Positions 18,158 through 48,071 of a DNA stretch of 64,000 bases are shown here, in pieces (the stretch's first letter is position 1; the number at the start of each line of letters is the position of its first letter). The DNA is taken from NCBI RefSeq assembly GCF_009728465.1, contig NZ_WOCD01000005.1:868001-932000 (forward strand). The letters are read 5' to 3'. The notes beneath the pieces are model-generated. The model did no database searches and was not told the origin of the DNA. It was given only the letters and a program-made list of their open reading frames with translations. Origin of the DNA: Psychrosphaera haliotis. Its GTDB lineage: Bacteria; Pseudomonadota; Gammaproteobacteria; Enterobacterales; Alteromonadaceae. The position numbers and the translations under genes are program-made.

Positions 18158-20385
18158 ATGCGTACGTTTAAAATCAGTGCGGTATTTGCTGCGACGATTT
18201 TAGCAATGTCTGGCACTGCACAGGCATTCAATAACAGTTCAAGTAACCCAGCCGGCTCACAGGTAGGCGCTGAATCAAAGGCGCAATCAGAATCAACGTC
18301 TGAGTCGCAAGAAAACAAAGCCGTTGAAAAAAATGCAGCTTCGGGACAAATAGAAACCATACAGGTCACTGGTAGTTACATTGAAGGTTACGGCGAAGAA
18401 GATGTAAACGGCGCATCAAGACTGAACTTAAAAATGGTAGAAATACCACAATCAGTATCGGTAATTAGTTCAGCGCAAATAAAAGATTTCCAACTTAATG
18501 ACATTAATGCTGCCTTAGACACCGCGACTGGTGTGCGTGTGGAACGAATTGAAACCGACCGTACTTATTACACGGCACGCGGCTTTGATATTACAAACTT
18601 CCAAATCGATGGTATTGGTTTACCGCTGATTTCAGGTAATAACCACGCCGATGAAGATACTGCTATTTATGACCGTGTTGAAGTTATTCGCGGTGCGAAT
18701 GGATTAATGACAGGTGTTGGTAATCCATCAGCAACCGTTAACTTTATTAGAAAGCGTCCAACAAAAACGACAGAGTTTGATTTAGATCTAACGGCAGGGT
18801 CTTGGGGTAAATCTAGAATAGAAGCGGATTATTCCACGGCAGTGACAAAAGATGTTGGCGTTAGGTTTGTCGCGGTAAAGCAAAAAATGACTCGTATTTA
18901 GATCGCTACAGCCAAGATAAAACCGTAGTTTATGGTTTTGTGGATATCAAAGTATCTGACGACACGCAGTTATCTTTAAGTCATGTAATTAATGACAATG
19001 ACGCAACAGGCAATACCTGGGGTGCAAACCCGTTATTTTACACTGATGGTACCGCAACTAATTATGATGTAGGTACAAATACGTCAGCAGATTGGTCAAT
19101 GTGGGACGTTAAAAAAAGCAATACCGTGGCAGAGTTGACTCATTTCATTAATGAAAACTGGGATGTGCGCGCCACTTATTCTAGAAAGAAGACCGATGAA
19201 GACTCACAACTTTTTTATGTATATGGCTCTCCTGACAGCACCACAGAGCTTGGTCTGCTAGGTTACGCAAGTGAATATGATCATGATGATGAACATGACT
19301 TGTTAGATGTATATACAACTGGTCACTTTGATGCATTTGGCCTACAGCACCAAGTTGTGTTTGGTTTGAGCTATGCAAACATGGATTATTCAGATCTGTC
19401 TTTATACGACTACTCAACGCCATACGGTTTCCCTGTGATGCCAGCGTTACCGACTTGGGATGGCAACACGCCTAAACCAACATTTTTAGACGCTAAAACA
19501 GGCGCTGATATTAAAACGACTCAAAAGGCGGCGTACTTTACTGCTCGACTCAACTTAGCAGAAGGTTTTCACACCATTATTGGTGGGCGATTTAACGACT
19601 GGAACGTAGAAGGTTCAAGTTACGGTGTGGTTCAAGATCGTGGTGACAACGTATTTATTCCATATGTAGGTGCTGTTTATCAAGTAACCCCAGAAGTGTC
19701 GGCTTATGCAAGTTATACAGAAACCTTCTTGTCTCAAACTGAAATGGACATTAACAACAATATTCTAGACCCAATTACGGGTGAAAGTGCTGAGATTGGT
19801 GCTAAAGCTGAGTTGTTTGATGGTCGTCTTATTGCCTCTGCAGCTTACTTTGACGTAGAGCAAGTCAACGTTGCGAAACTAGACCCTTTAACAGCTAACT
19901 TAGGTCCTGAATTACAGCGTCATATTGGCACTGATGGGATCAGCAGTACAGGCTATGAAATTGAACTGGCCGGTCAAATTGGCGACTCCACTCAAGTCAG
20001 CTTTGGTTTTACCGACTTTGAAATTGAAGGCGATGAAGAAGTACAAGACTACACACCAGAGACGCTTGTTAAATTGGCAATTACTCATGATTTAGAGGCC
20101 GTTGATGGTTTAACAATTGGCGCAAACGTCAATTATCAAAGTGCCACAAGCCGTGTTCAAGGCGTAACTACGGCAGGCGATGCTATTGGCTCGGTAATTG
20201 TGACAGAGCAAGATGCTTATGCGTTAGTTAACCTAATGGCCAACTATGAAATTAACGACACAGTCAGTGTTTCATTAAACGCCAACAATGTAACCGATGA
20301 AAAGTACATAAACAGCTTGTACTGGGCGCAAGGTTATTACGGTGCGCCGGCTAATTACTCGGCGACAGTTAGTCTGTCTTTCTAA
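18158..20385 (+). pseudogene. TonB-dependent siderophore receptor, one frameshift
   Basis: Two frames (18158-18901, and onward through 18940-20385) make one receptor of about 742 residues. The N-terminal part has a signal peptide ending AQA, a Ser/Glu-rich linker, a TonB-box-like IETIQVTGSY and the plug domain (MVEIPQSVSVISSAQIKDFQ; YDRVEVIRGANGLMTGVGNPSATVNFIRKRP), typical of ferric-siderophore receptors of the FhuE/FpvA type. The second part is the 22-strand barrel, ending in NATVSLSF-like aromatic residues. Adding one A to the A6 run at 18882-18887 restores ...KQKNDSYLDRYSQDKTVVYGF across the break. A Fur box precedes it and a terminator follows. It is either a true break or a homopolymer sequencing error. 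The ligand is not predictable. Confidence 0.85.
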
Positions 20386-26535: not shown

Positions 26536-29500
26536 ATGTTGCATTCGGTAAATCAATACTTGTCTAAAAACGTTCGCTTATTAGGATTGTTTTTAGCCAT
26601 GGTCTTTTTGTTGGGCGGTAATTCGCTGTTGAATATGCCCAAAGCGGAAGATCCTCAATTCATGCTGCCTATTAGCATTGTTGAAATTATAGCGCCAGGC
26701 ATGTCACCGGCATTAATCGAAACGCAAGTTATTGAGCCAATAGAGCGCTCCCTTGATTTAGTTGAAGATATTAAAACTATTGAATCCCGCGCAAGGCACG
26801 GTTTCGGTCAACATACTCATTAAGTTTATTCATGGTACTAACCCGCAAGATGGCTTTGATGAGATTGTTCGTGCCGTGACTCGTATACGTGGTGAGTTGC
26901 CAGACTCAGTGCAAAACATTGTTTACTTTAAAGCATCGCCAACAACGGTAAATGTACTGCAATTAGCGGTTTCACATCCAGATAATGACTGGCAAACCAT
27001 AAAACGTGGTGCCACCAAATTAAAAAACCTACTGCAAGCATTGCCCAATGTGCAAGAAGCTGGAGTATGGGGACTGCCTCAATTAGTGGTCGCGGTAAAT
27101 GTCGACCCTGCCAAGCTCATTCAATATAAAGTCAATATCCAAGAAGTGATGCAAGCAGTAGCCAACCGAGGTGAAGCGAGTCATGCGGGATATTTAGATG
27201 ACAAGCAGGTTCGTTTTACCATCAATCTGTCGGGGAATATAAGAACGTTGAGCAACTAAAACAAACTGTGATTAAGATGCACGACGCGGCGCAAATAACC
27301 TTAGCCGATGTCGCTAACGTTGAAATAGACTTTAATAAACCAGACAACATTGCCTTTGTAGCCGACAAGCCTGTGGTATTTGTGACGGCACAACAACGAA
27401 TGGGCGCCAACATATACAAACTAGGCTCGCAAGTTGAAGGTGTTTTACAAGAGTTTGAAAAAGCCCATGGCGACTTACAAATTCAAACCATATTTGCTCA
27501 AGAAGACAGTGTTCATTATCGTATTAACGGCTTTTTAAGAGACCTAGCCAGCGGCCTATTACTAATACTGCTTTGCTTATTTTTCTTCATGGGTTTCAAA
27601 CAATCATTCTGGGTATCTTTAGCATTACCAATCACTATTTTTGCCACCCTCACTATTATGAATTTAATGGGATTTGTTATGCAGCAAATGACCATTGCAG
27701 GCTTGATAGTCGCACTAGGTTTGCTGGTTGATAACTCCCTAGTGGTGGTTGAGCAGTTTGTTAAGGTGCAAGACAAAGTGTCCAACCGAATGGAAGCGAT
27801 TAAACAGGTGATTACCGATGTGGGCTTACCTCTGGTTTCCGGTACGTTAACAACGGTGTTTGCGTTTTTACCTTTGTTATTGCTTCAAAGTGATACCGGC
27901 GACTTTATGCGTGCACTGCCAGTGTCTGTTTCCATATCGTTATTGGTATCGTTAGTGGTGGCGTTAATTGTTTTGCCAGTATTAATGAGCGTATTTGGCG
28001 TATCAAAAGAGTCCAGTTGGACCTTAGCTTACAAGTTAAACAAGTTTGCAGATGGCTGGTTCTCAAGGCTTCTGAATCGCTTATTAAAAAGACCTGCACT
28101 GGTACTTTTAGTCTTTGTTATTGGTGTGGCTGGCTGCATAAGCTTAATGTCTAAAGTGGGCGTGAGTTTATTTCCAAAAGCTGAAAAAAGCATGCTGGTG
28201 GTTAATTTAGAAACACCAATGCAGTCGTCGTTAAAATATACCGAGACCGCTGCTTTGCAATTAAGCGAAGAGCTACAAAAGCTTAAACACGTAAAAAGTG
28301 TAGTTACAACGGTGGGCGCAACAAGTCCACGAATCTACTATAACCATACCTCAGACCGAGGCCGTGCGAACTTTGCTCAACTGTTAGTCATTGCTGACGA
28401 TTATGAAAAAAACAAAATCCAAAACATGATCAATACAATACGAGAAAAGTATTCAGGCTCTAGTTTAGGCAAGGTAAACGTCTTTGAATTCCAGCAAGGT
28501 CCAGTCACTGACAGACCAATAACCATTCGTATTTTAGGCGATGACTTAGACCAAATAGGCCAACGAGCCGCACAAATACAAAAATACATTGCCAGCCTTG
28601 AACATACTTTTGATGTGCGCAATATCACCGCTGAGTCGGGTTTTGCATATGATATTAAAATCGATGAAATAAAAGCTCATCAACGCGATGTTGATCTGCA
28701 GTCAGCGGAACAACAAGTTAGTCTGTTAATAGACGGTGAATTTGCTGCTGAAATTAACGACCGCTTTGGTCAAGCCTTCCCTGTACTCATTCGCAGCAAA
28801 CAAGAGTCTGTAGGCGCGTTAGAGTCAATGTATATTAAAAATAGGCAGGGGTTAGATATACCGCTTTCGTCTATTGCGAAAATAGAGGCTTCAAGACTTA
28901 AACCGGCTTTTTATCATTATCAACGTATAAGAATGGCGCGCGTTTCAGCCGACGTAATTAAGCCTGGAAACGTTGCCAAAATTACTCAAAACATTGAAAG
29001 CTACATGAATGAGTTAAGCTGGAAAAATGGCTTAAGTTACAAAGTTGGTGGTGAAGAAGAAGCCAGAAAAGAAAGCTTTGGCGGCCTATCACAAATATTA
29101 ATTGTGGTGGTGGTGAGTATTTTTGTACTGCTGTTCATTCAATTTAATAGCTTTGCCCAGCCGTTAGTAATTATTAGCTTGTTACCTATTGCTTTTGCTG
29201 GCGCTGTGTTTGGTATGTTTGCTACAAACCTCAGCTTTTCCATGATGGCCTTCATTGGTTTAATTAGCTTAATAGGTATTATGGTAAACGATGCAATTAT
29301 TGTTGTTGACGGTTTTAATCGAGGTCGATATCGCTTTAATTCAGCCAAAGAAGCCATGGTGTCGTCGGTGGCAAGTCGATTCACTCCGGTGATTTTAACG
29401 TCGTTAACCACGATTGTAGGTTTACTGCCGCTTACCCTTTACGGTGGTGACTTATGGCAACCTATGGGAATAGTGATTATTACCGGTTTAGCTTTCACAA

Positions 29501-29562
29501 CGTTGGCCTCATTAATATGGGTTCCGGCGTTCACACTAATTTTGTCTAGGCGTAAAAACTAG
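26536..29562 (+). pseudogene. RND family efflux pump permease, two frameshifts
   Basis: Three frames (26536-26823, up to 27259, and onward to 29562) give one pump of about 1008 residues, the normal RND length. The parts carry the N-terminal helix and porter start (FLLGGNSLLNMPKAEDPQ), pore-domain motifs (IMNLMGFVMQQMTIAGLIVALGLLVDNSLVVVEQF, with the proton-relay Asp) and the second repeat (SMMAFIGLISLIGIMVNDAIIVVDGFN). Removing one C from the CCC at 26786-26788 and adding one G to the GGGG at 27232-27235 restores a continuous protein (IKTIESAQGTVSVNI; LSGEYKNVEQL). The adaptor gene ends 7 bases upstream. Two compensating single-base errors in short homopolymers look more like assembly errors than decay. 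Confidence 0.85.
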
Positions 29563-31419: not shown

Positions 31420-31641
31420 ATGGCGAAACTTCTCCCAATTGATAACAACGTGAAAGAGCTTCGTGAGCGCCACAACAATATGACGCAAGGGCAGTTAGGT
31501 GAATTAGTCGGGGTAACTCGACAAACGGTAGCTGCCATCGAACAACGCCGTTACTCACCGTCTTTGGAAACTGCATTTAGGATCGCGCGTGAATTTGGCG
31601 TTGGCTTAGATGATGTTTTTACTTGGCAAGGCCAGAGTTAA
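31420..31641 (+). CDS. Small XRE-family HTH regulator
   Basis: 73 residues, almost entirely one helix-turn-helix domain: VKELRERHNNMTQGQLGELVGVTRQTVAAIEQRRYSPSLETAFRIAREFGV, ending LDDVFTW. It belongs to the YozG-like compact regulators that accompany small membrane proteins. Translationally coupled to the preceding gene. The two 18-bp palindromes at the operon promoter are its likely operators. It ends against prsR, with the two stop regions overlapping by 4 bases. Confidence 0.88.
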   Translation: MAKLLPIDNNVKELRERHNNMTQGQLGELVGVTRQTVAAIEQRRYSPSLETAFRIAREFGVGLDDVFTWQGQS

Positions 31642-32996
31642 TCTGGCTTTATGTCTTTCAAATTGTACTTTTCAATTAACGAATAAAGAGTAGGTCGGGT
31701 AACACCAAGTAACTCGGCTGTTCTCGACATATTATGTTTAGACTGTGCAAACGCCATTCTAATAGCCTGACTTTCAGCGTTCTCTCTCACTGTTTTTAAG
31801 TTTAGCTCAGTGATTTCGTCGTTATTCGTTTGAACGTTATAAAAGCCTAAGTCTTCAGCTGAAATTAAACTAGCATCAGAGATAATAACCGCAGATTTTA
31901 GCTTATTCTGAAGTTCACGAATATTCCCCGACCAATCATGTGCCAACATGGCTTGTATCGCGTCTTCGGTGAAACCTCTTACATTCTGCGAGAACTCTTG
32001 ATTGAATATATGAAGGAAATGTTTTGCTAATACCACCACGTCACCACTTCGAGCGCGCAAAGGCGGAATCTCAATAGTCACTTCACCAACGCGATAATAT
32101 AAATCTTCACGAAATTCTTCGCGTTTAGACATTTCCGGAAGGTTTCTGTGTGTAGCGCAAATAACCCTTACGTTTACTGAAATCTCATTTCGTCCACCTA
32201 CGCGCTCAATGACTCGCTCTTGTAAAAAACGAAGCATTTTAGCCTGCAGATTTAAAGGCATATCACCTATTTCATCTAAGAATAAAGTACCGCCGTTGGC
32301 AAATTCAACTTTACCTTTAGTGGTTTTCGCGGCACCTGTAAATGCGCCTTTCTCATAACCAAAAAGCTCACTTTCAAGCAGGTTGTCTGGGATTGATGCA
32401 CAGTTGATGGCAACAAAAGGGCCTTTATTTCTTGGGCTAGATTCGTGAATGGCTTTAGCAAATACTTCTTTACCAGTACCACTTTCGCCAAGCAAAAGCG
32501 TAGTAATGTCTGCTTTGGCAATTTTCTCAGCAAGTCGACAAGCCTTTTGAATGTCTGGACTGTTACCAATGATGCCACCAAATGGATTGTGGCTTTGTTG
32601 CAACGAACGATGTTCATCTTCTAGTTTAGCTAAATTAAACGCACGACCAACAATAATAGACAAGGTATCCATGTCGATAGGTTTTTGATAAAAGTCATAT
32701 GCACCAAGCTCTATGGCTTTTAATGCGTTTGTTTTATCAGAGTTGCCGGTGACTACAATAACTTTAGTATTGGGTGCAAGGCTCATGATATCCGCTAAAA
32801 CAGCAAGGCCTTCAGAAGCATTAGTTGGATCAGGCGGTAAGCCTAAATCTAGAGTCACGACTTTAGGCTCGTGGCGGCGAAGTTGGGAAATAGCTTTTTG
32901 GCGATCTTCAGCAAAAATCAGTTCGTATCCTGACAAACCCCACTTTAGCTGTTTTTGAATTCCTAAATCGTCTTCAACGATTAATAACTTGTCCAT
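31638..32996 (-). CDS. prsR: PEP-CTERM-box response regulator PrsR, sigma-54 activator
   Basis: 452 residues in NtrC-like order: receiver domain (phospho-acceptor Asp50 in VVTLDLGLPPD), AAA+ sigma-54 interaction domain (Walker A GESGTGKE at 170-177, GAFTGA at 217-222) and a C-terminal Fis-type HTH (MSRTAELLGVTRPTLYSLI). The receiver sequence fits TIGR02915, the PrsR family of exosortase genomes. With PrsK it activates RpoN-dependent transcription of PEP-CTERM genes; the sigma-54 promoter at 42720-42735 is a likely target in this window. Its ATG overlaps the prsK stop (TAATG). It is the last gene of a seven-gene operon. Confidence 0.92.
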   Translation of the reverse strand: MDKLLIVEDDLGIQKQLKWGLSGYELIFAEDRQKAISQLRRHEPKVVTLDLGLPPDPTNASEGLAVLADIMSLAPNTKVIVVTGNSDKTNALKAIELGAYDFYQKPIDMDTLSIIVGRAFNLAKLEDEHRSLQQSHNPFGGIIGNSPDIQKACRLAEKIAKADITTLLLGESGTGKEVFAKAIHESSPRNKGPFVAINCASIPDNLLESELFGYEKGAFTGAAKTTKGKVEFANGGTLFLDEIGDMPLNLQAKMLRFLQERVIERVGGRNEISVNVRVICATHRNLPEMSKREEFREDLYYRVGEVTIEIPPLRARSGDVVVLAKHFLHIFNQEFSQNVRGFTEDAIQAMLAHDWSGNIRELQNKLKSAVIISDASLISAEDLGFYNVQTNNDEITELNLKTVRENAESQAIRMAFAQSKHNMSRTAELLGVTRPTLYSLIEKYNLKDIKPD

Positions 32997-35047
32997 TAGT
33001 TTTCCTTACTTGCAAGAGGTAAACACATTACAAATGTAGTGCCTATGCCCAAATCGCTATTTACAGTGAGAATGCCGCCGTTTTCAGACGCAAAAGTTTT
33101 GGCTTCATATACGCCAACGCCCATTCCTGCGTTGCCTTTAGTTGTCTCAAAAGGCTTGAAGAGTAGATTATTAATGAAATCTTTGCTCATTCCAATGCCT
33201 GTATCCGAAATTATGATCTTTATATTTTGTTTCGCACTGTCTAGCGTTAGCTTCACCAACACAGATCCGTTTTCGTCTGTCGCTTGTTGCGCATTATCAA
33301 TGAGGTGGCCGATAACGGAACTAAACCTGTCTTTGTCCAAGTCCAGTGACAGCTCATTTGGGTGTGCAACATAAATAGGGCTAGGCGCTCTATCTTGGAA
33401 ATCACCAACCAGTTCCGATAACGTCTTGTTTAGCTCAATGAGCGCCGCCGAACTTCGTTGTTGTTGCTTCTCTTTTAACTGTGAGAGCATTTTATCCATT
33501 CGCTCTTTGGTATGCTCTAGAGTTTCAAAAGTGTCATCGATAAACTCTTGATTATTTCTATATTTTTTACTGTTACTAACGATCATTCCAATTTGAGCAA
33601 TGACATTTTTTAAGTCATGAACAACAAAGGCTGACATTCGATTGAAGGCTGCAAATTTCGCATTTTCTTCTAGTCTTACTTTTGCCTCATTAGACTTTAT
33701 AAAGCCAGCAACTTGAGACGATACAGCGGTGAGATAATCTTTTATTTCCCAGTTAACTTTAATGCGGTCGGCATTTTTACTCGATAATAAAAAGCATCCA
33801 TGTAATTTATTGCTGATAAAAATAGGCAAAATAATTTCAATACCATCAGACAACAAACCCGCTACTTTACAATCATTAAAGTGTGTTTCGTATTCAGTAC
33901 GGTGAAACTCTGGCAAATCTATAATCCAATGGCTTTGTTCTAGGTTTGGAATTAAGCAGTGTAGTTCTAATAAGCTTTTATGAGACAAACCAAATACATC
34001 TGAGGTAACTAGCTCTAAATGCTCATGTTGCAACATAATATAAGCACCAGTGGAATAGTGCAGAGAGCCACATACCCCTTTTAAACTAGTTTGATAAAAG
34101 TCTTGGTTGGCGTCGGTTTCACTTAAAGTATTGGTTAACTTGAGCCATTCTTCACGATAATCAAACTGGTTGGCATAAAAGTGCTTTTGAATATAGGTTC
34201 TAAAGTATTTTCTTAAAGACTCAGAGATAAAAATATACGCTAGCGCTACTAAAGCTCCAGCAACAAAAACGATTTGTAAAATACCGGACCAAGCGGCGCC
34301 AATTTGCTGTATCACATACCCTGTCATGGCCATGATTAACAAATAACCGCCAGAAAACAGCAATAATGAACTGTTAAGAACCACATCTCGGGAAATAAAT
34401 ACGCGTAAGTTCCAGCTTGATACTCGCTTCATACTAAGCAGTAAAAGAGGCGTTAACATGGCATAAATATACGGACGAGAGGCCAGATAATTCACATCAA
34501 CGGCACTAAGTAATAACGCGTTAGACATCATGATTAGGTGAAATATATTAACCATAGCAAGACCGAGCACTAATGGTTTGTAGGCCCACTTCTGCTCGCC
34601 GGCACTTCGGTATATTTGCTCAATCAAAATAAGCTGAATAATGCTGCCTAATAAACCGCCACCGATAACTAAACGTAACTCCATCGCTTCATCAAAAAAC
34701 GGTGAGAAGATAGCAAAGTTAAAAATTACAATTAAAAAGATGATTGTAAGTACATACTTACTTCTGAGCATTTTACTCATAGAAATAGGCTGGTTATCTA
34801 AAATAGACAACAATAACAATGACCACATTCCAATTTGTAACGACTCTAAAAACGGAGAAATAAAGAATGGAGATGAAGAGAAGGTAGCGCCGAGAGCATA
34901 ACCAACAGACCATACAATCATCATGACGTAGGTGATTAAAAAGACCGCGCGAAGAGGCCCTTTTGCATTGCTACCAAACAATAGTGCTGAGGTTGATAAA
35001 TAGCCAATCAAACATAACGAAAGGCCTACAAAATATGCAATTTCCAA
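32996..35047 (-). CDS. prsK: PEP-CTERM system histidine kinase PrsK
   Basis: 683 residues: about eight N-terminal membrane helices (1-280), a GAF-like sensor region (about 300-460), then the kinase core with the phospho-acceptor His in VVHDLKN (about 477), N box IGHLIDNAQQA, and G boxes SDTGIGM and GNAGMGVGVYEAK. This order is that of TIGR02916. The start is probably the TTG at 35047, preceded by AGGA. It senses an unknown signal at the inner membrane and phosphorylates PrsR, encoded in overlap. It lies 18 bases after the protease gene in the same operon. Confidence 0.92.
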   Translation of the reverse strand: MEIAYFVGLSLCLIGYLSTSALLFGSNAKGPLRAVFLITYVMMIVWSVGYALGATFSSSPFFISPFLESLQIGMWSLLLLSILDNQPISMSKMLRSKYVLTIIFLIVIFNFAIFSPFFDEAMELRLVIGGGLLGSIIQLILIEQIYRSAGEQKWAYKPLVLGLAMVNIFHLIMMSNALLLSAVDVNYLASRPYIYAMLTPLLLLSMKRVSSWNLRVFISRDVVLNSSLLLFSGGYLLIMAMTGYVIQQIGAAWSGILQIVFVAGALVALAYIFISESLRKYFRTYIQKHFYANQFDYREEWLKLTNTLSETDANQDFYQTSLKGVCGSLHYSTGAYIMLQHEHLELVTSDVFGLSHKSLLELHCLIPNLEQSHWIIDLPEFHRTEYETHFNDCKVAGLLSDGIEIILPIFISNKLHGCFLLSSKNADRIKVNWEIKDYLTAVSSQVAGFIKSNEAKVRLEENAKFAAFNRMSAFVVHDLKNVIAQIGMIVSNSKKYRNNQEFIDDTFETLEHTKERMDKMLSQLKEKQQQRSSAALIELNKTLSELVGDFQDRAPSPIYVAHPNELSLDLDKDRFSSVIGHLIDNAQQATDENGSVLVKLTLDSAKQNIKIIISDTGIGMSKDFINNLLFKPFETTKGNAGMGVGVYEAKTFASENGGILTVNSDLGIGTTFVMCLPLASKEN

Positions 35048-35065: not shown

Positions 35066-35956
35066 TTATTGTCTAGTTTGTTTAAGTAACTTATGTATTT
35101 CCGACACAGGAATGGCGTAACTAATCCCACTAGGATCTGATAATACATTTTCCCGTGTTGATTTCACCAACACACTGTTAATAATCGCGACAACCTTGCC
35201 CGTAGCAGTTTCAATAACAGGGCTGCCACTGTTGCCAGGATACGCAGTAACATCAAGTTGATACACGTAAAGTGGATTTCTTAAGCGTTTAATCATTTCA
35301 ATCGACAACTGACTGGCGTTTTTCTGTGGTATAGCTTGCGGAACAAAAGCAGACACATAACCAATATGTATCGCCTTAAATAGTCCCAAAACAGAACCAA
35401 TAGGCAAACCAGAAAGCATGATTTGACTGCCAGCAGGGGCGTTATAATCACTATCACTTAACGTTAAAGCAGGCAATACGGCATCAATTTCAATAATGGC
35501 CACGTCTGCACGTTCGTCTTGAGCAATCAACTTTGCAGTATAAAAACGTGCTTTTTTACCTTCACCAACATGCACCGATATTTGAGCCTTGTCGGGATCA
35601 TAGGCCTTACCGTTAACAACATGATGATTAGTGGCAATAATACTCTTAGTTGCCGAAGAACGAACCACAAACCCTGTACCAAGCAGCTGATAACGCGGTG
35701 CACTTAGCGGATTGTAAACACCAACGCCAACTACTGAAGGTTTAGTTTGTGCGGCAATCGCGGGTAAGGAATTAGAGCCTTGAGCAAAACTTGGAGAGGA
35801 AAACATAACTAACGAAATAATAAGCATTAACGCAAAATAAACAGCTGATTTAGCTGACGTTAAAGCTGACTCAATTTTAGTAACAGCTGAATAACCAACG
35901 CGTACACTAACGTCTGACATCAATGAATTAAATTCTTTTCTATTTGTTAGCGCCAT
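35066..35956 (-). CDS. Trypsin-like serine protease, membrane-anchored or secreted
   Basis: 296 residues. After a 38-residue N-terminal polar stretch comes one hydrophobic signal/anchor segment (VYFALMLIISLVMFSSPSFA), then a chymotrypsin-fold protease with His in IIATNHHVVNG, Asp in ERADVAIIEI and Ser in YPGNSGSPVIE. There is no PDZ domain, so it differs from DegP/DegS. The ATG at 35956 is preceded by GAGGAG and overlaps the previous gene by 17 bases. Its place between the modification genes and prsK suggests processing of an exported substrate or signal input to PrsK; this is inference. Confidence 0.87.
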   Translation of the reverse strand: MALTNRKEFNSLMSDVSVRVGYSAVTKIESALTSAKSAVYFALMLIISLVMFSSPSFAQGSNSLPAIAAQTKPSVVGVGVYNPLSAPRYQLLGTGFVVRSSATKSIIATNHHVVNGKAYDPDKAQISVHVGEGKKARFYTAKLIAQDERADVAIIEIDAVLPALTLSDSDYNAPAGSQIMLSGLPIGSVLGLFKAIHIGYVSAFVPQAIPQKNASQLSIEMIKRLRNPLYVYQLDVTAYPGNSGSPVIETATGKVVAIINSVLVKSTRENVLSDPSGISYAIPVSEIHKLLKQTRQ

Positions 35957-37037
35957 TGACTGGCTCCTCTTTAAACTTCTCTTTCATATTATGTATGAAT
36001 TTCCTACAAATATGTGGAATTAATACATGAAGCGGCATCTTAATTAAATGGCTTCGCATATATAGCCAAAACAGCCCAACGTTATTAATAAAATTGCCTT
36101 GAGCAATGCTGTCTGCAGTAAACACAAATTTAAATGCTGGAACTGTCACATAGAAGGTAATAGCGTTTTTACTAACTAAGCTTTCTACTTGTTTATGTTC
36201 CAATTCTTTGTCCAAGTTTTTTAAAACAAAAAGCAACGCGAGGTGAACATAATCATCTAAGCCAAGTGCCTTACTTCTTTCTAATATTAATTTATGCGCT
36301 GACTCAGTTTCTTCCTCACCATCAAGCTCCTGGTAAAGAATAATTAAATCGGTTATGTCCCTTATTGCATGGGGGAATTCACCTTCGGTAAATAGGTGTG
36401 TAGCGCTATGAATAAACCTATCAACTAAGTCAAAGGTCAGCAGTGGGACTTGTTTCAGTTTGATTGTTTTTAACTTGTCCGCATTGAAGTGCTTTTTATT
36501 GGTCAGCGGCAGTATATTGTGATGTAAATCGATAGTTGTTAAACGGTCTTTGTGAATTAAAGGCTGTATTTCGTGCATCCATTCTCTAAAGTAACGCTTG
36601 TCGTAGTCAGTTTCTTTTTTGTGGAACCAGCCCTGTGTCATCAACGCAATTTCAGCATCACGGATTTTTGAGTGGTCCACAAGTATATCAATGTCGTTAA
36701 AAATACGGCCATGTTTACAGTTAGACGAAACAGCGATGTACGCAGCACCTTTCAATACAGTCGTATCAATACCTCTACTTACTAAAGTGTTAGATATATC
36801 TTCTAGCTCTCTATTAATATTGATCTCTTGCTGCTCTACAAATAAGTTACAGCTCGTGAAATGGGGAACCACTCTGTCTGGTACATGTTTTTCGACGCTG
36901 TTTGACTGTAAGCGCCACCAAATACGGCCAAGCATATTTTGGTCACGGCCATGGGAAACCACTTTTGACCAATCATACATAGATAACTTGTTGGCCAACT
37001 CAGGGTTATTAAATAAAGATATTAATAAATTGCTCAT
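35940..37037 (-). CDS. Nucleotidyltransferase family protein (NTP_transf_5 type)
   Basis: 365 residues with the pattern TVLKGAAYIAVSSNCKHGRIFNDIDILVD near 94-122, including the two acidic residues (DID) of the nucleotidyltransferase active site, as in the PF14907 family. The middle and C-terminal parts are helical (HSATHLF..., DLIILYQEL). Family members occur next to HprK-related kinases and PqqD-like proteins in exosortase genomes. It overlaps the kinase gene by ATGA, which means translational coupling. The acceptor of the predicted nucleotidyl transfer is unknown. Confidence 0.85.
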   Translation of the reverse strand: MSNLLISLFNNPELANKLSMYDWSKVVSHGRDQNMLGRIWWRLQSNSVEKHVPDRVVPHFTSCNLFVEQQEININRELEDISNTLVSRGIDTTVLKGAAYIAVSSNCKHGRIFNDIDILVDHSKIRDAEIALMTQGWFHKKETDYDKRYFREWMHEIQPLIHKDRLTTIDLHHNILPLTNKKHFNADKLKTIKLKQVPLLTFDLVDRFIHSATHLFTEGEFPHAIRDITDLIILYQELDGEEETESAHKLILERSKALGLDDYVHLALLFVLKNLDKELEHKQVESLVSKNAITFYVTVPAFKFVFTADSIAQGNFINNVGLFWLYMRSHLIKMPLHVLIPHICRKFIHNMKEKFKEEPVNGANK

Positions 37038-37933
37038 AAAGTTAGGGCCTCAAACCATTCTAAAGCGGCTTTGTTGTCGCCATAACGTAAATTAAAACTT
37101 GAGGTGCCATCAATAAATTCGGTTAAAGTATTGAATCCGGATAACCCTAAAATATTGTAGTTAAAAGAGTTGGCTATTAATTCAAAAAAAGCGCTATCTT
37201 GTGACATAGGGTCCGTTGACAAGGCTTCGTTTTTACTAAATTTAGGCAGAATAATATGAGTTGCTTTAGATTTTTGATCAATGTTTGCCACTGAAGCGTC
37301 CGGAGCTTTAAACAGGCAAACGTCACCTTTGTGAGTATCTTTTACAATATTTGAATGCGCCACATTTGGGAAAGCTTGTTTAATGACAGAAATAGATTGG
37401 TTTTTTAGGTTAATGGGGCGCGCTAATGGCTGAATTAGGCCTGAACTGGTTTCAATTAAAGTAAGCTCGTCAGACAAAAGGCGCCATCCAGAAAAAACTA
37501 AAAGTGCGGTAAGGGTGCTTTTACCTGAACCAGGTGGCGCTGGCAATACAACACAAATACCATTTTTTTCGACAACGGCCGCGTGGATCATAAGATATTG
37601 GTGTGCATTAGAAGAAATACACCAATTTAGGCCCCATTCAAACATAGGGAAAGCTTGATTTGCAGGAATAGGAGTAAATGGCTCCTGGTCGCCTAGCTGG
37701 AAAAAGCACTGTTTTCGAAAAAATTTTCGTATTAAGGAGTGGGAATTTCTCAGTGTGATTTCAAAATCTACAAAATGCTCATCAGATAACACTTCAAATT
37801 CGCTGTATATTTTTGCAATTTCTTCATATACATTTTGGAAGTCGCTTTTGACGGCGATAGAAAACGGGCCAACATCAAATTTTAGCGTTTTTCCTGACTC
37901 TAGTTTTGACTTAGCTAAATCCTTTAGTTTCAA
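37034..37933 (-). CDS. HprK-related kinase A
   Basis: 299 residues with the HPr kinase-like P-loop PAPPGSGKSTLTALL (131-145), the preceding IHAAVVEKNG (116-125), and LLSDELTLIE (152-161), which corresponds to the second acidic element of HprK. It lacks the N-terminal HprK regulatory domain, as expected for the 'HprK-related kinase A' group restricted mainly to PEP-CTERM/exosortase genomes. No HPr or PTS gene is nearby. The start appears to be a TTG, three bases after the PqqD-like gene. The likely substrate is a protein or peptide presented by the PqqD-like partner; this is inference. Confidence 0.9.
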   Translation of the reverse strand: MKLKDLAKSKLESGKTLKFDVGPFSIAVKSDFQNVYEEIAKIYSEFEVLSDEHFVDFEITLRNSHSLIRKFFRKQCFFQLGDQEPFTPIPANQAFPMFEWGLNWCISSNAHQYLMIHAAVVEKNGICVVLPAPPGSGKSTLTALLVFSGWRLLSDELTLIETSSGLIQPLARPINLKNQSISVIKQAFPNVAHSNIVKDTHKGDVCLFKAPDASVANIDQKSKATHIILPKFSKNEALSTDPMSQDSAFFELIANSFNYNILGLSGFNTLTEFIDGTSSFNLRYGDNKAALEWFEALTL

Positions 37934-37936
37934 CTA

Positions 37937-38197
37937 CTAGCTCTCTATAAGTGCTCTCTGTTGTAAAGAGTTTAACGTATTATCGACAGCTAACATAGCG
38001 TGTTCTTCACTGCAGTCGAGGTCTTGAACAATAACTTCAGTTAGCTCTGATTTGTTCTCAACACCAGAGGATAGTGCTGTAAAAAAGGTTTCAACATCTA
38101 TAGGGATAAACAATGTTTCGGAAAGTTTTATATTATAAATATAAGTACCGTGACCTTCATGAGTTCGAGTCACGGTATTTGATCTAAATTTTAGCAA
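37937..38197 (-). CDS. HPr-rel-A system PqqD family peptide chaperone
   Basis: 86 residues with a PqqD-like winged fold (LFIPIDVETFFTALSSG..., ending NTLNSLQQRALIES). Upstream stops leave only a TTG at 38197 as start, and this overlaps the stop of the preceding gene (TTGCTAA), implying translational coupling. PqqD proteins bind leader peptides for modifying enzymes, usually radical SAM proteins; none is present here, and the partner is more likely the HprK-like kinase encoded next. The gene is short but supported by its strict position. Confidence 0.85.
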   Translation of the reverse strand: MLKFRSNTVTRTHEGHGTYIYNIKLSETLFIPIDVETFFTALSSGVENKSELTEVIVQDLDCSEEHAMLAVDNTLNSLQQRALIES

Positions 38198-38877
38198 ACT
38201 GTATCAGCTTCCCAGCCCAAGTCACCCTGGCCTTCGTGTACTAAATTTACCAAAATAAGTTTAGCGTCTCTGTAAGCAACTCTTCCTTGCTCGTAATCTT
38301 TACAAAATGCTCTTATTTCGTCTTGAGTATAAGGGTAACCAACAGCGCCATACAAAGGGTCAGCATTTAAATAAGCCGTTAACATAAATCTATCAACCTG
38401 AGTAACAGAGTGACCGTTAATGTTTGCAGTTTCACCTGAACCACTCCAATTGCTAGGGCTTAGTACGTCTCGTACTTGAGCTGCAAGCATTGAACCTGGA
38501 AAAATGCCGCCAATACCGCCATAAAACTTATCATAATAATAGTCAGGCAGTTTGCTGCTTCCGCTTATTGACTCACATCCATTAGAAGCTTGGGCACTTT
38601 GACTATTAGAAGCCCACGAAGAACCTTTTGCTTTGTTTTTCTTGTTTTTCTTACTTTTATGCTCGTGAAAATAACCAGGACTAAAGCCATTAAATTTGGT
38701 CAAATTAGTGCTTCTAGACATCGCACCTGACTGGTTTCCAGAGGTTGCGCTAGATGTAGCCCAAACTGGAGCTGCAGCCACGGCTGTAATTACAGGCGCA
38801 ATATTAGCGCTCTTAATTAAAAGCTTACGTCTTGAAGACTGTAATTCAGTTTTGGAATCTTTGATCTGCTTATCCAT
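38191..38877 (-). CDS. Tat-like exported protein of unknown function, first gene of HprK-rel-A/prsKR operon
   Basis: 228 residues. The N terminus has a twin-arginine signal (SRRKLLIK at 15-22, hydrophobic stretch, cleavage likely after VWA at 40). Next comes a Ser/Asn/Lys-rich linker with KKNKKNKAK (about 77-85), then a compact domain with YYYDKFYGGIGG, DRFMLTAYLNADPLYG and YPYTQDEIRAFC. There are three cysteines (101, 192, and 228 as the last residue). I do not recognise the family with confidence. Being first in an operon with a PqqD-like leader-binding protein and a kinase, it is the best candidate for the modified substrate. The twin arginines may also serve as a leader motif rather than true Tat export. 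Confidence 0.8.
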   Translation of the reverse strand: MDKQIKDSKTELQSSRRKLLIKSANIAPVITAVAAAPVWATSSATSGNQSGAMSRSTNLTKFNGFSPGYFHEHKSKKNKKNKAKGSSWASNSQSAQASNGCESISGSSKLPDYYYDKFYGGIGGIFPGSMLAAQVRDVLSPSNWSGSGETANINGHSVTQVDRFMLTAYLNADPLYGAVGYPYTQDEIRAFCKDYEQGRVAYRDAKLILVNLVHEGQGDLGWEADTVC

Positions 38878-39168
38878 ATTTGTACCACCAGAATATTAAT
38901 CGCTATTGGTCTAATTATAACCAGACTCAATAAATTTATAAAGAAGCATCTGCAATTAACGAGCCTAATTTTAAGTATATGTTTTTATTGATTAATTTAA
39001 TATTTCGAGGCGTGGTTGTAAAAGAAACTGACACTGGTTGATATGGCAACCGTGGACTATTATAAAAACTTACTGTTTTTAATGAAATAAGTGAAAATAT
39101 AAATTTACATTTTTTTCGATTATTGGCACTGTTGTAAGCAAATCGGATATAAATTCAGGGTAGTTCAA

Positions 39169-41770: not shown

Positions 41771-42667
41771 TTACGCTTTACGACGTGCAACACCAGCTAG
41801 ACCTAAAAGACCTAAGCCGAATAGTGCCATTGTACCAGGTTCAGATACTGTTTGAGCAGTAAAGTTACCAGTACCACGTTCACTGTAGTTAGAGATAGTG
41901 CCGTCAGGTCTAACAAAGCTAGATGTTAAGCCAAACGCAGAAACGTCATACATGTTTTGGAAGAAGTTTGACTCAAAGTTAAACTGAGCGATTCCACCAA
42001 CAATGTTTGATACAAATGAACTTGAACCTACAGTAAGCGGCTCTGCACCAGAACTTCCATCAGGAGTAAATTCGAAATTCTCGTTTTGAGCAGATAACCA
42101 TAAAGTACCATCTACTGCTTCTGCGCCTTCGCTATTTGCAGATGCCTGATCTACGACAACGCCTTCATCAAATTCGTTTGCTTGGTAATCAATATAAATG
42201 TTTAACCAAGAGTCTTGTGAATTGATTACCGGAACGTTGGCCATGATCTCTACGAAACCACCGTTGCCGTCAGGTGCAAATGCCCCAGTACCTACAGTTT
42301 GAATACCGTCAAAGTAAAGGCCACCAAATGAGAACGTTAGCTCACAGTTGCCACAGTTAGGTTCACCTAAACCACCACCAAGTAAAACTTGACCAACACC
42401 TACAAGTTCAGGGCTGTCGCCATTCGCAATAGCAGTACCAAGTGATGCAAGAGTAGGGGCAATTGATGCACCGTCTAACGCTACATTGTGGTCAGAAATA
42501 CCTGTTGTGTTGGTAGTTGTCCACCACTGAGTATATTCAACCGCTGTTCCGAAATTTGGTTCACTTGGTAAAGTGTTCCAAGATACACCGCCTGCTGCTG
42601 AAACAACACCAGCTGATGCTGACGCGCTTGCCAACAATACTGGTACCATCAATAATAATTTTTTCAT
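41771..42667 (-). CDS. PEP-CTERM sorting domain protein
   Basis: 298 residues from the ATG at 42667, chosen because it has an AAAGGA ribosome site and begins a typical signal peptide (MKKLLLMVPVLLASASASA). The mature protein is acidic and Gly/Asn/Ser-rich, with one Cys pair (NCGNC). The C terminus is a PEP-CTERM signal of the SEPGT variant: VSEPGTMALFGLGLLGLAGVARRKA has Glu-Pro, hydrophobic helix and Arg cluster. It is expected to be cut by exosortase XrtA and released or attached at the surface, often in flocs or biofilm. A sigma-54 promoter lies 53-68 bases upstream of the start. Confidence 0.92.
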   Translation of the reverse strand: MKKLLLMVPVLLASASASAGVVSAAGGVSWNTLPSEPNFGTAVEYTQWWTTTNTTGISDHNVALDGASIAPTLASLGTAIANGDSPELVGVGQVLLGGGLGEPNCGNCELTFSFGGLYFDGIQTVGTGAFAPDGNGGFVEIMANVPVINSQDSWLNIYIDYQANEFDEGVVVDQASANSEGAEAVDGTLWLSAQNENFEFTPDGSSGAEPLTVGSSSFVSNIVGGIAQFNFESNFFQNMYDVSAFGLTSSFVRPDGTISNYSERGTGNFTAQTVSEPGTMALFGLGLLGLAGVARRKA

Positions 42668-42719
42668 TTTGTTATCCTTTAAAAGCAAAATAAGTAATCT
42701 CACACTTCTTACTCTACTA

Positions 42720-42735
42720 AGCAGTAACCGTGCCA
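42720..42735 (-). promoter_or_regulatory. Sigma-54 (RpoN) promoter of PEP-CTERM gene
   Basis: On the minus strand TGGCACGGTTACTGCT matches the -24/-12 consensus TGGCACGNNNNTTGCW at every fixed position but one, with the exact GG-to-GC spacing. It sits 53 bases before the PEP-CTERM ATG. The cognate activator is probably PrsR, encoded in this window. Confidence 0.88.
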
Positions 42736-42803
42736 CTATTTAACTTGCTGTTTTTGCTGTTTTTTATTTGATTCCGTTTGTTCATTGTAAAGAAAAATGA
42801 CAG

Positions 42804-45444
42804 TTACTTTGACTCAATCTCTTTAAGAGTTGCTCTGTAAGTAGCTGAGTTAGGTGCAAGGGTAATTGCACTTTTAATGTATTCAATGGCTTTTGTTTTG
42901 TTGCCCTGCTTCATTGCTATTTGACTAGCAGTATCAAAAAGCTCAGGGTTTTTATTATTGAGCTCAATTGCTTTTTCAATATGTTTGGCCGCAAGAGCAA
43001 TTTTGTTATTTTGCAGTTCGAACCATGCTAAGTTGTTAAAGGCAATTGAATCGTTAGGAGCCAACTCAGTAATTTTAAGTGCTGCGTATTCTGCTTTTAG
43101 TGGGTCCTTTTGAATTTCAACATTAAATTTAACTTGCCATGTATTTAGATCAGCAGGATACATTTCTAAGTGCGATTCCAAAAATGCAGAGGCGGCAGGG
43201 TAGTTATTAGTCATTCGGTAAACACCAGTAATAAACTTAACTAACAGCGGGCTGTGGGTTTCATCATAAACTTTTTTAAAAGTACTCAGGGCTAATTTAA
43301 AATCACCATCGATTGCTGCAAATCGGCCTTTAAGAGTTTGCCATTCAAGCATTTCAGCGTATTTACCAGCTTGAATTGAATTGAACACCTGTTTAGCTTC
43401 TTGAACACTTGCCTTATTTAATAACATATCAACGGTGAGGTACTTAAACACAACATTATTAAATCGTTGGGTGCCCAATTTAGCCGTTGCAAGCGCTTTT
43501 TCTAACCTATTAGAGTACTGATAAAGATATACTAAACGTAAACTAGCCAATGCATTTTGTTCGGTTGCGCTCCAGTTTTCATATCCTGCAATTGCTTCGT
43601 TAAAGTTTTCCAGTTTTAAATTTAATTCAGCAAATAAAGGCCAATAGTTAGCAGGTAGTTGAGGACTGTTTTTAATATTTTCTAAAAGCTGTAATGCTTT
43701 TTTAGGTTGAAGCTCCTGCATTAAAAAGAGTGAGTGCAAAACCACGTACTCAGGATGTTGGTCTTGTGCTACAGATGCTTCAATAAACAAAGATTCAGCA
43801 TCATCCAACAGCGCTAGATAGTCTCGGTTTCGAGGCCAAGTACTGTAATGCTAGCTTGTCAGTAGGGTTCTGTTCCAAAATTTCAGAGAGAAACCTCACG
43901 TTTTGTGATAAATCTGATTTTCTATTTAATCGAACCAACTCAATTTTAGCGTCTCTAGATACCGCATCTACCGTCGTTAACTTTGTTAGTGTTTTAATCG
44001 CTGAATCTGGTTCATTAACTTTAAGCATCAGTTTAGCGATTAATAATTCATCGTTAACGGAAATGCCAGGAGTTGCTAGCCACTGATTTAGTTCAGCTTT
44101 TGCTGAATCAATTTTTCGGGCTTTCATTAGGCCTAAAACGTAACCTAGTCTAGACTCTGCTTTACTTGGGTGCGCCTCAACTATGGTTTTAAGGTCTTGT
44201 AGTCCGCTAAAGTCGTTTAGACGTAATTTAAGTAGACCTAAATTTACAGCGTTAGTAACGTTCAAGTCCTCTACAGCCGTTGCTTTTAATAACGTTTCTA
44301 GTGCTAAAGTTGACTGCCCCTGGTTCACCAACTTATTTGCTGAAAGGGTCATCATAGATACCATATTGTCATCTACTTTTTCTTGCTCTAACAATAACTG
44401 CGCAGCTTCTTTATCTTTACCTACATTAACCAACGCCATAATCAAAAGCTGTTGGTTGTTTTCCGTTTTGCCTTTCTCTGAAACTGAAGATAAGCGTTGT
44501 AACGCCTGTTCCGGTTTATTTGTTTTTAAGAAAATGGCACCAGCAAGAGAGTTTGTAAAATCATCGGACAAGCCATTTTTTAATGCGTTTTGTATATTAA
44601 GCTCAGCCGTCTCAAAATCACCTTTTAGGTAGTGGATTTGTGCAAGCATTTGATCTTGCAGTGGACTGTATAAACGTCCACTTTGAAGCGTGGTAAGCTT
44701 CTTTTTAGCATCATCTAAGTTATTAATTTGAATTAAAACACGAGCATGAAGAAGTTTGCTTCTATAATCATAAGGTACGTTCTCGTTGTAAACGCGTAAT
44801 ACACTGTCGGCTTTATCAGCTTCGTTATTACTAGTGTACAATTTAACCAAAACTAGCCTTGCATCGTTAAAATCCGTATCTTCTTCTAATAGTGTGTTTG
44901 TCAGGGAAATAGACTTGTCAGTATCGCCTTTTGAGTAGAGTGCTAATGCATCGATCAGCTGGGCATGACCAGAGTTGCTCGCGTTTGGCTGTGCTATGAG
45001 GGTTAACGCATCGTCAATTAGGCTTCTATTTATTAGAGTATAAAGTTGGTAAAACTTAATTTGATCTCGAACTTCAGGATTAACATCTACATCTTCTAAA
45101 TCTATTGATTCCAGATCTTCAAGTTTATTCTGAAGGAACAACAAGTGACCTAACGTTGGAAAGACTAAATTAATATCTGCACCTTTATCGAGTGCCATCA
45201 TCAGTTCTTTTTCAGCCGCTTCTATATTCCCTATTTTTAAATATACGCTCGCCAACTCTAAACGAACATCGGCATCTTCCGGTGCATTTTTAGCTGCGTT
45301 TTTTAGGGCAATAGTTGCTTCACTGAAGTTTTTTTCCGAAATGAGTTGTTTAGCATCAGACAAGTGTTCTGTTGTGGTTTTTTGACCGCAGCCTGCCATG
45401 GCAATCACTAGCGACGCAACTGCGATTTTGTGTAGAGTGTTCAT
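42804..45444 (-). pseudogene. prsT: PEP-CTERM system TPR-repeat lipoprotein PrsT, one frameshift
   Basis: Two overlapping frames (45444-43801 and 43808-42804) together make one TPR protein of about 879 residues, the normal size of PrsT (TIGR02917). The first part starts with a lipoprotein signal (AMAGC, Cys19) and the family pattern ELMMALDKGADINLVFPTLGHLLF; both parts are dense TPR repeats. Removing one T near 43838-43839 (plus-strand AA) gives LALQYWPRNRDYLALLDDAESLF. PrsT is thought to act in the periplasm or outer membrane in exopolysaccharide export. It lies 34 bases after the acetyltransferase gene and ends before the PEP-CTERM promoter. Confidence 0.85.
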
Positions 45445-46855: not shown

Positions 46856-48071
46856 ATGAACAAAGAGCCTATAAATAACTGTCTGAACAAGAAAAAAGTC
46901 GTGCATATTGTGCCAAGTTTTGGCTGCGGCGGCCTTGAAAAGGTAGTGGTAAATCTCATAAATAATTCTGCGCATTACAATGTAAAACACGTGCTCATTT
47001 CGCTAACAACAGACTTTGAGCTCGCCAAAGAAATTAACGTACCGGTTGAAGTTTATTGTTTAGGCAAGCAGCCAGGTAATGACATTTTCAGTCATCTCAA
47101 ACTCTTCAAATTACTTAAACGAATAAAGCCGGCGGCGTTTCACTCTTATAACTTTGGCACTATTGAATATCATCTAGCGGCAAAATTGGCGGGCGTTTCC
47201 TGTCACTGTGCATTGCGACCATGGCCGTGGCGGCGATGACCCTGCAGGTAAGAACAAATTTAACAATCGCTTCAGACAACTGATTTCCAAGTTTATCGAC
47301 CACTATATTGTAGTGTCGTATGACTTATATAGATGGGTGACGGAAGCTTTAAAAATCAGCGAAAGCAAAGTCCAACTTATCTTTAATGGCGTCACAGTTG
47401 AAAAAGACGTTGCTGTTAAACAAGTTGCAGGAAAACAAGTCGTGACAAACGGTTCCTCAGAAAACCAAACCTCAGAACACCAAACGTCAGAAAACCAAAC
47501 CTCTGTCACTTCCGCGTCTGGCAATGCGCCGTTTGTGATCACAACGGTTGGCCGGTTAGACCCAATTAAAAATCAAAAGTTACTATTGTCGGCGTTTGAT
47601 TTGGCTAAAAAGACCTACCCTAATTGGGAAAATGTAAAACTTCAGCTGGCGGGTAATGGACCTATTTATCAAGAGTTAGTGGATTTCAACAATTCACTAA
47701 GTAGCGCCAAAGATGTTGAGTTTTTAGGTTTTAGATCTGATGTGGCCGACATTTTGTCCAAAACCGATTTATTTGCGCTGTCATCAAATTATGAAGCCAT
47801 GCCAATGACCATTTTGGAAGCCATGGCATTAAAGGTTCCGGTAATCACCACAAACGTGGGCGGTATTGCCAAGTTTATCGACGAAAGTCATGCCTGGTTT
47901 GTTGAAAGTAAAAACGTGGAATCCTATGCCGAAACGCTAAACAACATACTGTTAGATGAGCAGGCACGATTGCAAAAAACCGGTGTTGCCCATCAACTTG
48001 TATTTGATAATTACAGCATGGATAAAATGGTCGATGCCTACTTGGGGTTATATCAAGTAGAGTTACGGTAA
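46856..48071 (+). pseudogene. PEP-CTERM/XrtA-associated glycosyltransferase (GT4), one frameshift
   Basis: Two frames (46856-47239 and 47208-48071) form one GT4 protein of about 404 residues. The N-terminal Rossmann domain starts KKVVHIVPSFGCGGLEKVVVNL; across the break the sequence becomes VHCDHGRGGDDPAGKNKFNNRFR, then VVSYDLYRWV and FNGVTVEK, which is the pattern of the TIGR03088 exosortase-associated sugar transferase. The C-terminal domain has VGRLDPIKNQKLLLSAF and SSNYEAMPMTILEAMALKVPVI. Removing one base near 47198-47202 restores the frame. A Ser-Glu-Asn-Gln-Thr repeat (47457-47501) forms an unusual linker insertion between the two domains. Confidence 0.85.
47457..47501 (+). repeat. 15-bp tandem repeat x3 inside glycosyltransferase linker
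   Basis: Three copies of TCAGAAAACCAAACC (middle copy with two substitutions) encode (SENQT, SEHQT, SENQT). It lies in the hinge between the N- and C-terminal domains of the GT4 protein and is likely a slippage expansion. Confidence 0.8.

Follow-up and report, generated by a model that had tools for sequence, protein, structure and literature searches.

A twin-arginine signal protein of Psychrosphaera haliotis as the proposed substrate of a PqqD-like/kinase/nucleotidyltransferase cassette in an XrtA/PEP-CTERM locus

According to passages of two reviews (PMC9266682, PMC8498205), lasso kinases phosphorylate a Ser at the C-terminal end of the precursor, and the presence of one or two hexoses on the Ser phosphate has been linked to PsmN. 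The lasso B1 protein binds the leader with a Kd of about 5 nM and presents it, as stated in excerpts of PMC5067487, and part of a study of ruminal bacteria (PMC7533575) notes that an HPr kinase, a PqqD and an uncharacterised nucleotidyltransferase recur near lasso clusters. In these portions of the literature, the lasso tailoring genes (PadeK/ThcoK/PsmK, PsmN and B1) bring together an HprK-like kinase, a PqqD-like RRE and a nucleotidyltransferase, as does the locus described here. The kinase and PqqD families are known already from NCBIfam, where they make up the HPr-rel-A system (TIGR04352, HprK_rel_A; TIGR04353, PqqD_rel_X). What appears to be new, judging from sequence, is the pairing of lasso-like tailoring genes with an exported protein. 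Searches of the open-licence PubMed Central literature yielded no description of a Tat/PqqD/kinase/nucleotidyltransferase system, and no text on PF14907 together with lasso. The XrtA/PEP-CTERM system provides the third point of comparison. The sections of the Haft 2006 account (PMC1569441) that were available associate PEP-CTERM genes and PrsK/PrsR with a sigma-54 motif, and do not contain the words HPr or PqqD.

The window, i.e. the whole stretch of 64,000 nucleotides of the P. haliotis genome that was analysed, contains the following features in and around the operon of the Tat-signal protein, here called P0001.

38951..38966, minus strand: sigma-54 (-24/-12) type site AGGCTCGTTAATTGCA, agreeing with 10 of 12 consensus positions and starting 89 nt upstream of the start codon
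38191..38877, minus strand: P0001, Tat-signal protein of 228 aa with ATG at 38877, proposed substrate of the cassette
38758..38835, minus strand: twin-arginine signal SRRKLLIK...APVWA, residues 15-40, proposed leader, with RR in 60/60 alignment rows
38716..38742, minus strand: Ser motif SGNQSGAMS, residues 46-54, proposed acceptor or recognition tail, with conserved Ser columns
38194..38562, minus strand: C-terminal part, residues 106-228, with an LNA...YPYT motif, predicted helices from residue 160 and a genus-specific end Cys
37937..38197, minus strand: PqqD-like protein of 86 aa with TTG start and predicted RRE fold, overlapping the Tat gene by 7 bases
37034..37933, minus strand: HprK-related kinase A (TIGR04352, 338 bits, cut-off 200)
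35940..37037, minus strand: nucleotidyltransferase (PF14907, 122 bits)
35066..35956, minus strand: Trypsin_2 (HtrA-like) protease
31638..35047, minus strand: PrsK histidine kinase and PEP-CTERM-box sigma-54 response regulator of the PrsR type

The genes for P0001, the PqqD-like protein, kinase A, the nucleotidyltransferase, the Trypsin_2 protease, PrsK (536 bits) and the PEP-CTERM-box response regulator (698 bits) all lie on the same strand, and a gene for an exosortase-associated acyltransferase is divergent from the operon. A homologue of the protease is found somewhere in 49 of the 120 loci that were fetched, on either strand. Farther along, the window encodes a PEP-CTERM protein (TIGR02595, 18.9 bits, cut-off 16), the pieces of PrsT, nucleotide-sugar enzymes and glycosyltransferases, and the exosortase gene is located at 942929 of the same contig, outside the window. 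PrsK, the PrsR-type regulator, the PrsT pieces, the PEP-CTERM and sugar genes and the exosortase together identify the locus as an XrtA/PEP-CTERM exopolysaccharide locus, which also holds the XrtA-associated acyltransferase and ATPase. An Asn-synthase-like gene (62315-63961, minus strand) scores best with the XrtA amidotransferase model TIGR03108.

Several genes of the window look incomplete. The PrsT gene (42804-45444, minus strand) is split or frame-disrupted, consisting of two ORFs that match TIGR02917 positions 8-541 and 578-874. About 242 N-terminal model positions are missing from an RND permease (27268-29562, plus strand), about 250 from a FauA-like TonB receptor (18940-20385, plus strand), about 153 from a TIGR03088 glycosyltransferase (47208-48071, plus strand) and about 77 from the XrtA amidotransferase. 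With a genome completeness of 88.9%, the four N-terminally short genes may reflect indel errors in the assembly.

The reading frame of P0001 is genuine. A preliminary description of this DNA had placed it at 38191-38877 with no mention of strand; it is open on the minus strand (38877..38191), and the plus strand is closed across the same interval. The motif SRRKLLIK is present as S15-R16-R17-K18-L19-L20-I21-K22, the hydrophobic segment that had been called cleavable-looking is an uncharged stretch ending with APVWA at residue 40, and the Lys/Asn-rich linker is recovered at about residues 74-86. There are indeed exactly three cysteines (101, 192 and 228), with C228 as the last residue of the C-terminal sequence HEGQGDLGWEADTVC, and the PqqD-like ORF (38197..37937, minus strand) follows directly, with its 7-base overlap. 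The twin-arginine motif and the AxA-like cleavage site PVWA are the sequence features of a Tat substrate, TatC is encoded in the P. haliotis genome, and P0001 is probably secreted. The Tat model TIGR01409 matches 6 of the 60 Tat-protein members, P0001 not being among the six. P0001 has no C-terminal PEP motif, transmembrane segment or basic tail of the PEP-CTERM type and no NCBIfam match. The region upstream of the gene has a predicted RNA structure with z -1.9, and 6 of 200 shuffles fold equally well or better.

Searches for a known family or fold gave little. No NCBIfam or Pfam family matches P0001 above its cut-off (best Pfam match E 0.044, below the cut-off of that family), and a scan of the 60 Tat-protein members returned Tat-signal models and one glutenin match only; no NCBIfam model for the Tat partner of the HPr-rel-A system emerged from these 60. 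Among solved structures, the best match by sequence has E 0.92. For the predicted fold, Foldseek gave no match at E 0.001, and the best VIA score over 92 chains was Z 2.7 for 55 residues.

A single-sequence search with P0001 finds a match in only 4 of 40 genomes, its own included, because much of the protein diverges fast; the P. haliotis genome itself carries only one member. The kinase is easier to trace. It scores above the TIGR04352 cut-off in 61 of 398 phylum genomes and in 144-145 of 395 family genomes, giving about 201 places in total (148 from the family genomes and 53 others above the cut-off), from which 120 loci holding 121 kinases were hand-chosen for score and spread. Around these kinases the order Tat protein/PqqD-like/kinase/nucleotidyltransferase recurs. 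A Tat-signal ORF is present upstream of 110 of the 121 kinases in intact form and of three more in frame-disrupted form (L063, L095, L139), and was not recognised upstream of the remaining eight (L113, L125, L126, L129, L132, L143, L147, L152). With the 110 intact ORFs, the PqqD-like gene lies between the Tat ORF and the kinase wherever it can be recognised. Besides the window, an iterated PqqD profile finds 77 loci at E 0.01, and many further loci have a small ORF without significant match at this position. A nucleotidyltransferase homologue is found in 113 of 120 loci. One locus, L039 of genome G698, has two back-to-back cassettes on opposite strands, with different Tat proteins.

The pairing of Tat protein and kinase was counted with a profile of 60 Tat proteins run against the 395 family genomes. 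It gives 144 strong matches. All but one, a fragment at a contig end, have a kinase downstream on the same strand at a distance of no more than 2 kb (143 matches); the limit for a strong match (E <= 5.1e-11) was set after viewing the match list. By genome, 141 have both Tat protein and kinase, 4 the kinase only, 1 the Tat protein only and 249 neither, and kinship among the genomes means that a Fisher value for this table is not a true probability. Of the 141 both-positive genomes, 48 contributed a row to the profile and 93 did not. Among the kinase-only genomes, G726 has a partial kinase, G739 has it near a contig start, G442 has a weak Tat fragment and G605 is unexplained. Another 38 genomes have weaker matches (E up to 0.01); most of the few whose positions are among the matches listed cover the signal part only. 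A second set consists of 67 loci in named genomes that were found via the kinase. It has some genomes in common with the first, L194 being equal to L055 and L211 to L088 in substrate. Here a Tat ORF of at least 15 bits is in place in 59 of 67 loci, versus 4 of 2014 other ORFs, two of these four being in L159 and one in L173, which both score as misses. In four of the eight misses (L185, L190, L207, L223), no more than 800 bases are available upstream. The matches of the second set come from Betaproteobacteria, Gammaproteobacteria and Hydrogenophilia and from one alphaproteobacterial MAG; in a Phycisphaerae MAG (L214) the kinase is present and a Tat ORF was not recognised. The co-occurrence of Tat protein and kinase is thus near-obligate.

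The PqqD-like protein of the window matches no NCBIfam or Pfam model, TIGR04353 giving no match at E 1, whereas 41 of 61 aligned relatives do match TIGR04353. It was joined to the family by the iterated profile, which included its two orthologues, and by its predicted fold. The top Foldseek matches of the model (pLDDT 85.6) are lasso B1-leader complexes (5v1u, E 8.8e-4), and VIA-align superimposes it on the B1-leader complex 5v1v with Z 10.6 and an rmsd of 2.7 A over 84 residues, so that the protein is predicted to have the leader-binding RRE fold of lasso B1 proteins. Kinase residues H117, K138, D155, E156, K202 and N258 are invariant in 122/122 sequences, and in the nucleotidyltransferase K96 and G97 are kept in 114/114 and R111, D115 and D117 in 113/113. 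These invariant motifs suggest that both are working enzymes. The kinase counts were taken from the alignment instead of a generic P-loop pattern, which caught 51 of 121 kinases; in the window kinase the first P-loop residue is Ala. By sequence, the best matches among solved structures were an HPr kinase for the kinase (E 0.14) and an unrelated protein for the nucleotidyltransferase (E 0.06).

Lasso kinases have a catalytic His-Lys-Asp-Asp set, and the window kinase has H117, K138, D155 and E156, with Glu for the last Asp. The nucleotidyltransferase may be likened to PsmN by annotation alone. Lasso clusters have a B2 protease and a cyclase C, whereas none was found among the ORFs of the P0001 operon that were scanned. 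The lasso precursor is short and ends in Ser, whereas P0001 has 228 aa and ends in Cys, and 6 of 108 homologues end in Ser.

The preliminary description had proposed an alignment of homologues for the twin-arginine motif, and RR is kept in 60/60 of those aligned, so that the signal is no chance occurrence; in the second set, R followed by R or K is found near the start in 58/59. From the invariant RR and the predicted RRE fold, it is reasonable to suppose that the leader is recognised by the PqqD-like protein, as had been suggested. Site counts for the remainder refer to 52 of the 60 alignment rows, 8 rows of other types having been excluded by hand. At the end of the signal, W39 is found in 41/52 rows and A or G at position 40 in all 52. 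Most of the mature part varies extremely, the chief exception being serines just after the cleavage site: the best-conserved mature positions held by P0001 are S46 (50/52), S50 (50/52) and S54 (46/52), followed by P182, F118 and N171, and no column beyond 212 passes the conservation limit in P0001-type proteins.

The spacing of the serines recurs far above chance. Of 85 proteins, 70 have SxxxSxxxS in the 38 residues after the signal core, where 500 shuffles gave 5.9 on average and 17 at most, and 15 have it in the much longer remainder downstream (L110 was added for this count and L148 was not). In the second set the motif is present in 30/51 (shuffle mean 2.9, maximum 9) and S(G/A)xxS in 42/51 (mean 7.0, maximum 14). 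These counts leave out seven SC-type proteins, with which SxxxSxxxS becomes 30/58 against 3.0; L172 was dropped from them for lack of an anchor and L163 is mis-anchored. From the set of 108 Tat proteins and later counts L134, represented by the wrong ORF, was left out, and L067 and L137 are mis-anchored in it. The serine tail is not what unites the 17 SCWxS-type and 7 alpha-type (TC(F/Y)AS) substrates, which a C-terminal C-(aromatic)-x-S motif served to set apart. These Tat proteins of other clades, otherwise dissimilar in appearance, have a common C-terminal (S/T)C(W/F/Y)xS(F/L/I), the first group comprising L117, L120-L124, L130-L131, L144-L146, L149-L151 and L153-L155, and the second L133, L135-L138 and L140-L141. 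From its sequence, this motif may be a second type of acceptor.

Within the genus, the tail is identical at 8 of 20 residues and the C-terminal part at 106/123 and 74/116, and Gly replaces S46 in the same-genus orthologue L115. Pairs of same-genus Tat genes have dN values of 0.22 to 0.45, with a dS of 3.8 that was computable for one pair of three. In the P0001 model (mean pLDDT 69), the serine tail has a pLDDT of about 45-55 and the helices of residues 160-210 about 90. The low confidence for the serine segment would fit, rather than prove, a flexible tail.

The final cysteine, which the preliminary description had singled out as a possible modification or attachment site, fares less well. Of 108 cassette homologues, 103 lack it, the five that end in Cys being P0001, its two same-genus orthologues, L039b (from the double cassette) and L088, and in the second set 3/59 end in Cys, of which L211 is identical to L088. 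Both same-genus orthologues (72% and 57% identity) likewise end in EADTVC, so that the 3' end of P0001 is not a local sequence error. In another genome of the genus, G003 (L093), the cassette is present and the substrate ends in NPV. With Cys ends so rare and the NPV end in G003, the terminal Cys is at most a genus trait, shared by descent within one genus and rare beyond it. Its conservation in three same-genus proteins, P0001 included, is what speaks for a role in modification; since the cassette is unchanged in loci whose substrates end otherwise, including that of G003, such a role is very improbable. The expectation that Cys101 and Cys192 might be invariant is not borne out either, as the C101 column is not conserved and the C192 column has Tyr in 28/50. 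If P0001 is modified, the pattern of conservation makes the serines near its start, rather than the final Cys, the most likely place. A lipobox was considered and rejected: in homologues a Cys follows the cleavage site at variable distances, and P0001 has none there.

Sigma-54-type sites, defined as keeping GG and GC and agreeing with the consensus at 10 or more of its 12 positions, are enriched upstream of the Tat genes, a feature in common with the XrtA/PEP-CTERM system. P0001 itself has no PEP-CTERM match. They are found in 36/105 upstream regions versus 0/105 on the opposite strand (shuffle mean 0.9, maximum 4), and in the second set in 29/56 versus 0/56 (shuffle mean 0.7), after regions that were too short had been dropped. 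The site scores only 8 and 9 of 12 in the same-genus orthologues, and in an earlier scoring run 5 of 107 upstream regions had no site at all. Since the window-wide count is at chance (56 versus 58.6 expected), only the test upstream of Tat genes is informative. A sigma-54-like sequence with one mismatch, TGGCACGGTTACTGC, is present at 42721-42735 (minus strand), near the PEP-CTERM gene at 41771-42736. PrsK and PrsR are encoded a few genes downstream of P0001, and we infer that PrsR controls the Tat cassette.

The three kinds of lasso-like tailoring genes and their protein-sized, leader-bearing partner suggest leader recognition, Ser phosphorylation and decoration of the phosphate ahead of Tat export. 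By analogy, P0001 would be the cognate Tat-exported substrate of the cassette in the XrtA/PEP-CTERM locus. Before export, the PqqD-like protein would bind the twin-arginine leader region and present the flexible stretch that immediately follows the site of signal-peptidase cleavage. Serines of this stretch would be phosphorylated by the kinase (S46, S50 and/or S54), and the nucleotidyltransferase would then add a sugar or nucleotide onto the phosphate. The folded, decorated protein would leave by Tat, with the signal cleaved near A40, and expression would probably be sigma-54-driven with PrsK/PrsR, alongside the PEP-CTERM surface proteins. We consider this mechanism probable, with considerable reservations. 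Lasso kinases act on a C-terminal Ser, but the C-terminus of the Tat proteins is not conserved. The serine tail is not the common feature of the SCWxS-type and alpha-type substrates, so that the modified residue may be a different one or vary between clades, and within the genus the tail is less conserved than the C-terminal part, with L115 lacking S46. A Tat signal suffices for export by itself and need not be a PqqD leader. Finally, there are the 8 of 121 kinases with no recognised Tat ORF nearby, and a PqqD-like protein in the window that falls outside all NCBIfam and Pfam models.

In a different reading, P0001 is the substrate, but what the PqqD-like protein recognises is the SG..SGN.S segment, with modification elsewhere, in the C-terminal region or on the Asn of an N-x-S. 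RREs bind short stretches of precursors, as the leader-binding passages of PMC5067487 describe, the other clades share their C-terminal motif instead (17 and 7 proteins), and SGN-x-S often creates an N-x-S sequon in the alignment. Asn at column 52, however, is found in 31/52 rows and S50 in 50/52, for which reason an N-linked sequon was rejected, and the lack of any conserved column past 212 argues against a C-terminal site in the P0001 type. A separate role for the serine segment is thus unlikely, though to be taken seriously. It could also be that P0001 is an ordinary Tat-secreted matrix protein, merely co-transcribed, and that the trio acts on another molecule, for instance a sugar or lipid from exopolysaccharide synthesis. 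Polysaccharide genes abound in the locus, Tat signals are common, and modification of P0001 itself is only a proposal. The near-perfect Tat/kinase pairing in 395 genomes, a gene order kept across Alpha-, Beta- and Gammaproteobacteria and the predicted leader-binding fold all favour a partner encoded next door, and the mature domain diverges while leader and serine tail stay. We therefore hold mere co-transcription to be rather improbable. The confidently modelled helices of residues 160-210 might instead suggest that the Tat protein has an enzymatic activity of its own or regulates the kinase. A mature part that has no invariant catalytic-looking residue set, no family or structure match above thresholds and extreme sequence divergence makes it hardly credible that the Tat protein is anything of this kind.

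Should P0001 prove to be the substrate, a direct test is at hand, with one protein, three partner genes and a nine-residue candidate site. More tentatively, the cassette may represent a widespread bacterial way of modifying proteins. A whole folded protein would be phospho-glycosylated on a serine tail adjoining its Tat signal, ahead of export into the exopolysaccharide matrix, by a RiPP-style recognition protein, a relative of HPr kinase and a nucleotidyltransferase. The Tat signal would then also serve as a RiPP-like leader, and the substrates, which evolve fast, would be strain-specific surface or matrix proteins. If true, RiPP-type leader recognition would be extended from small peptides to Tat-exported proteins, and covalent modification would be added to the exosortase/exopolysaccharide loci.
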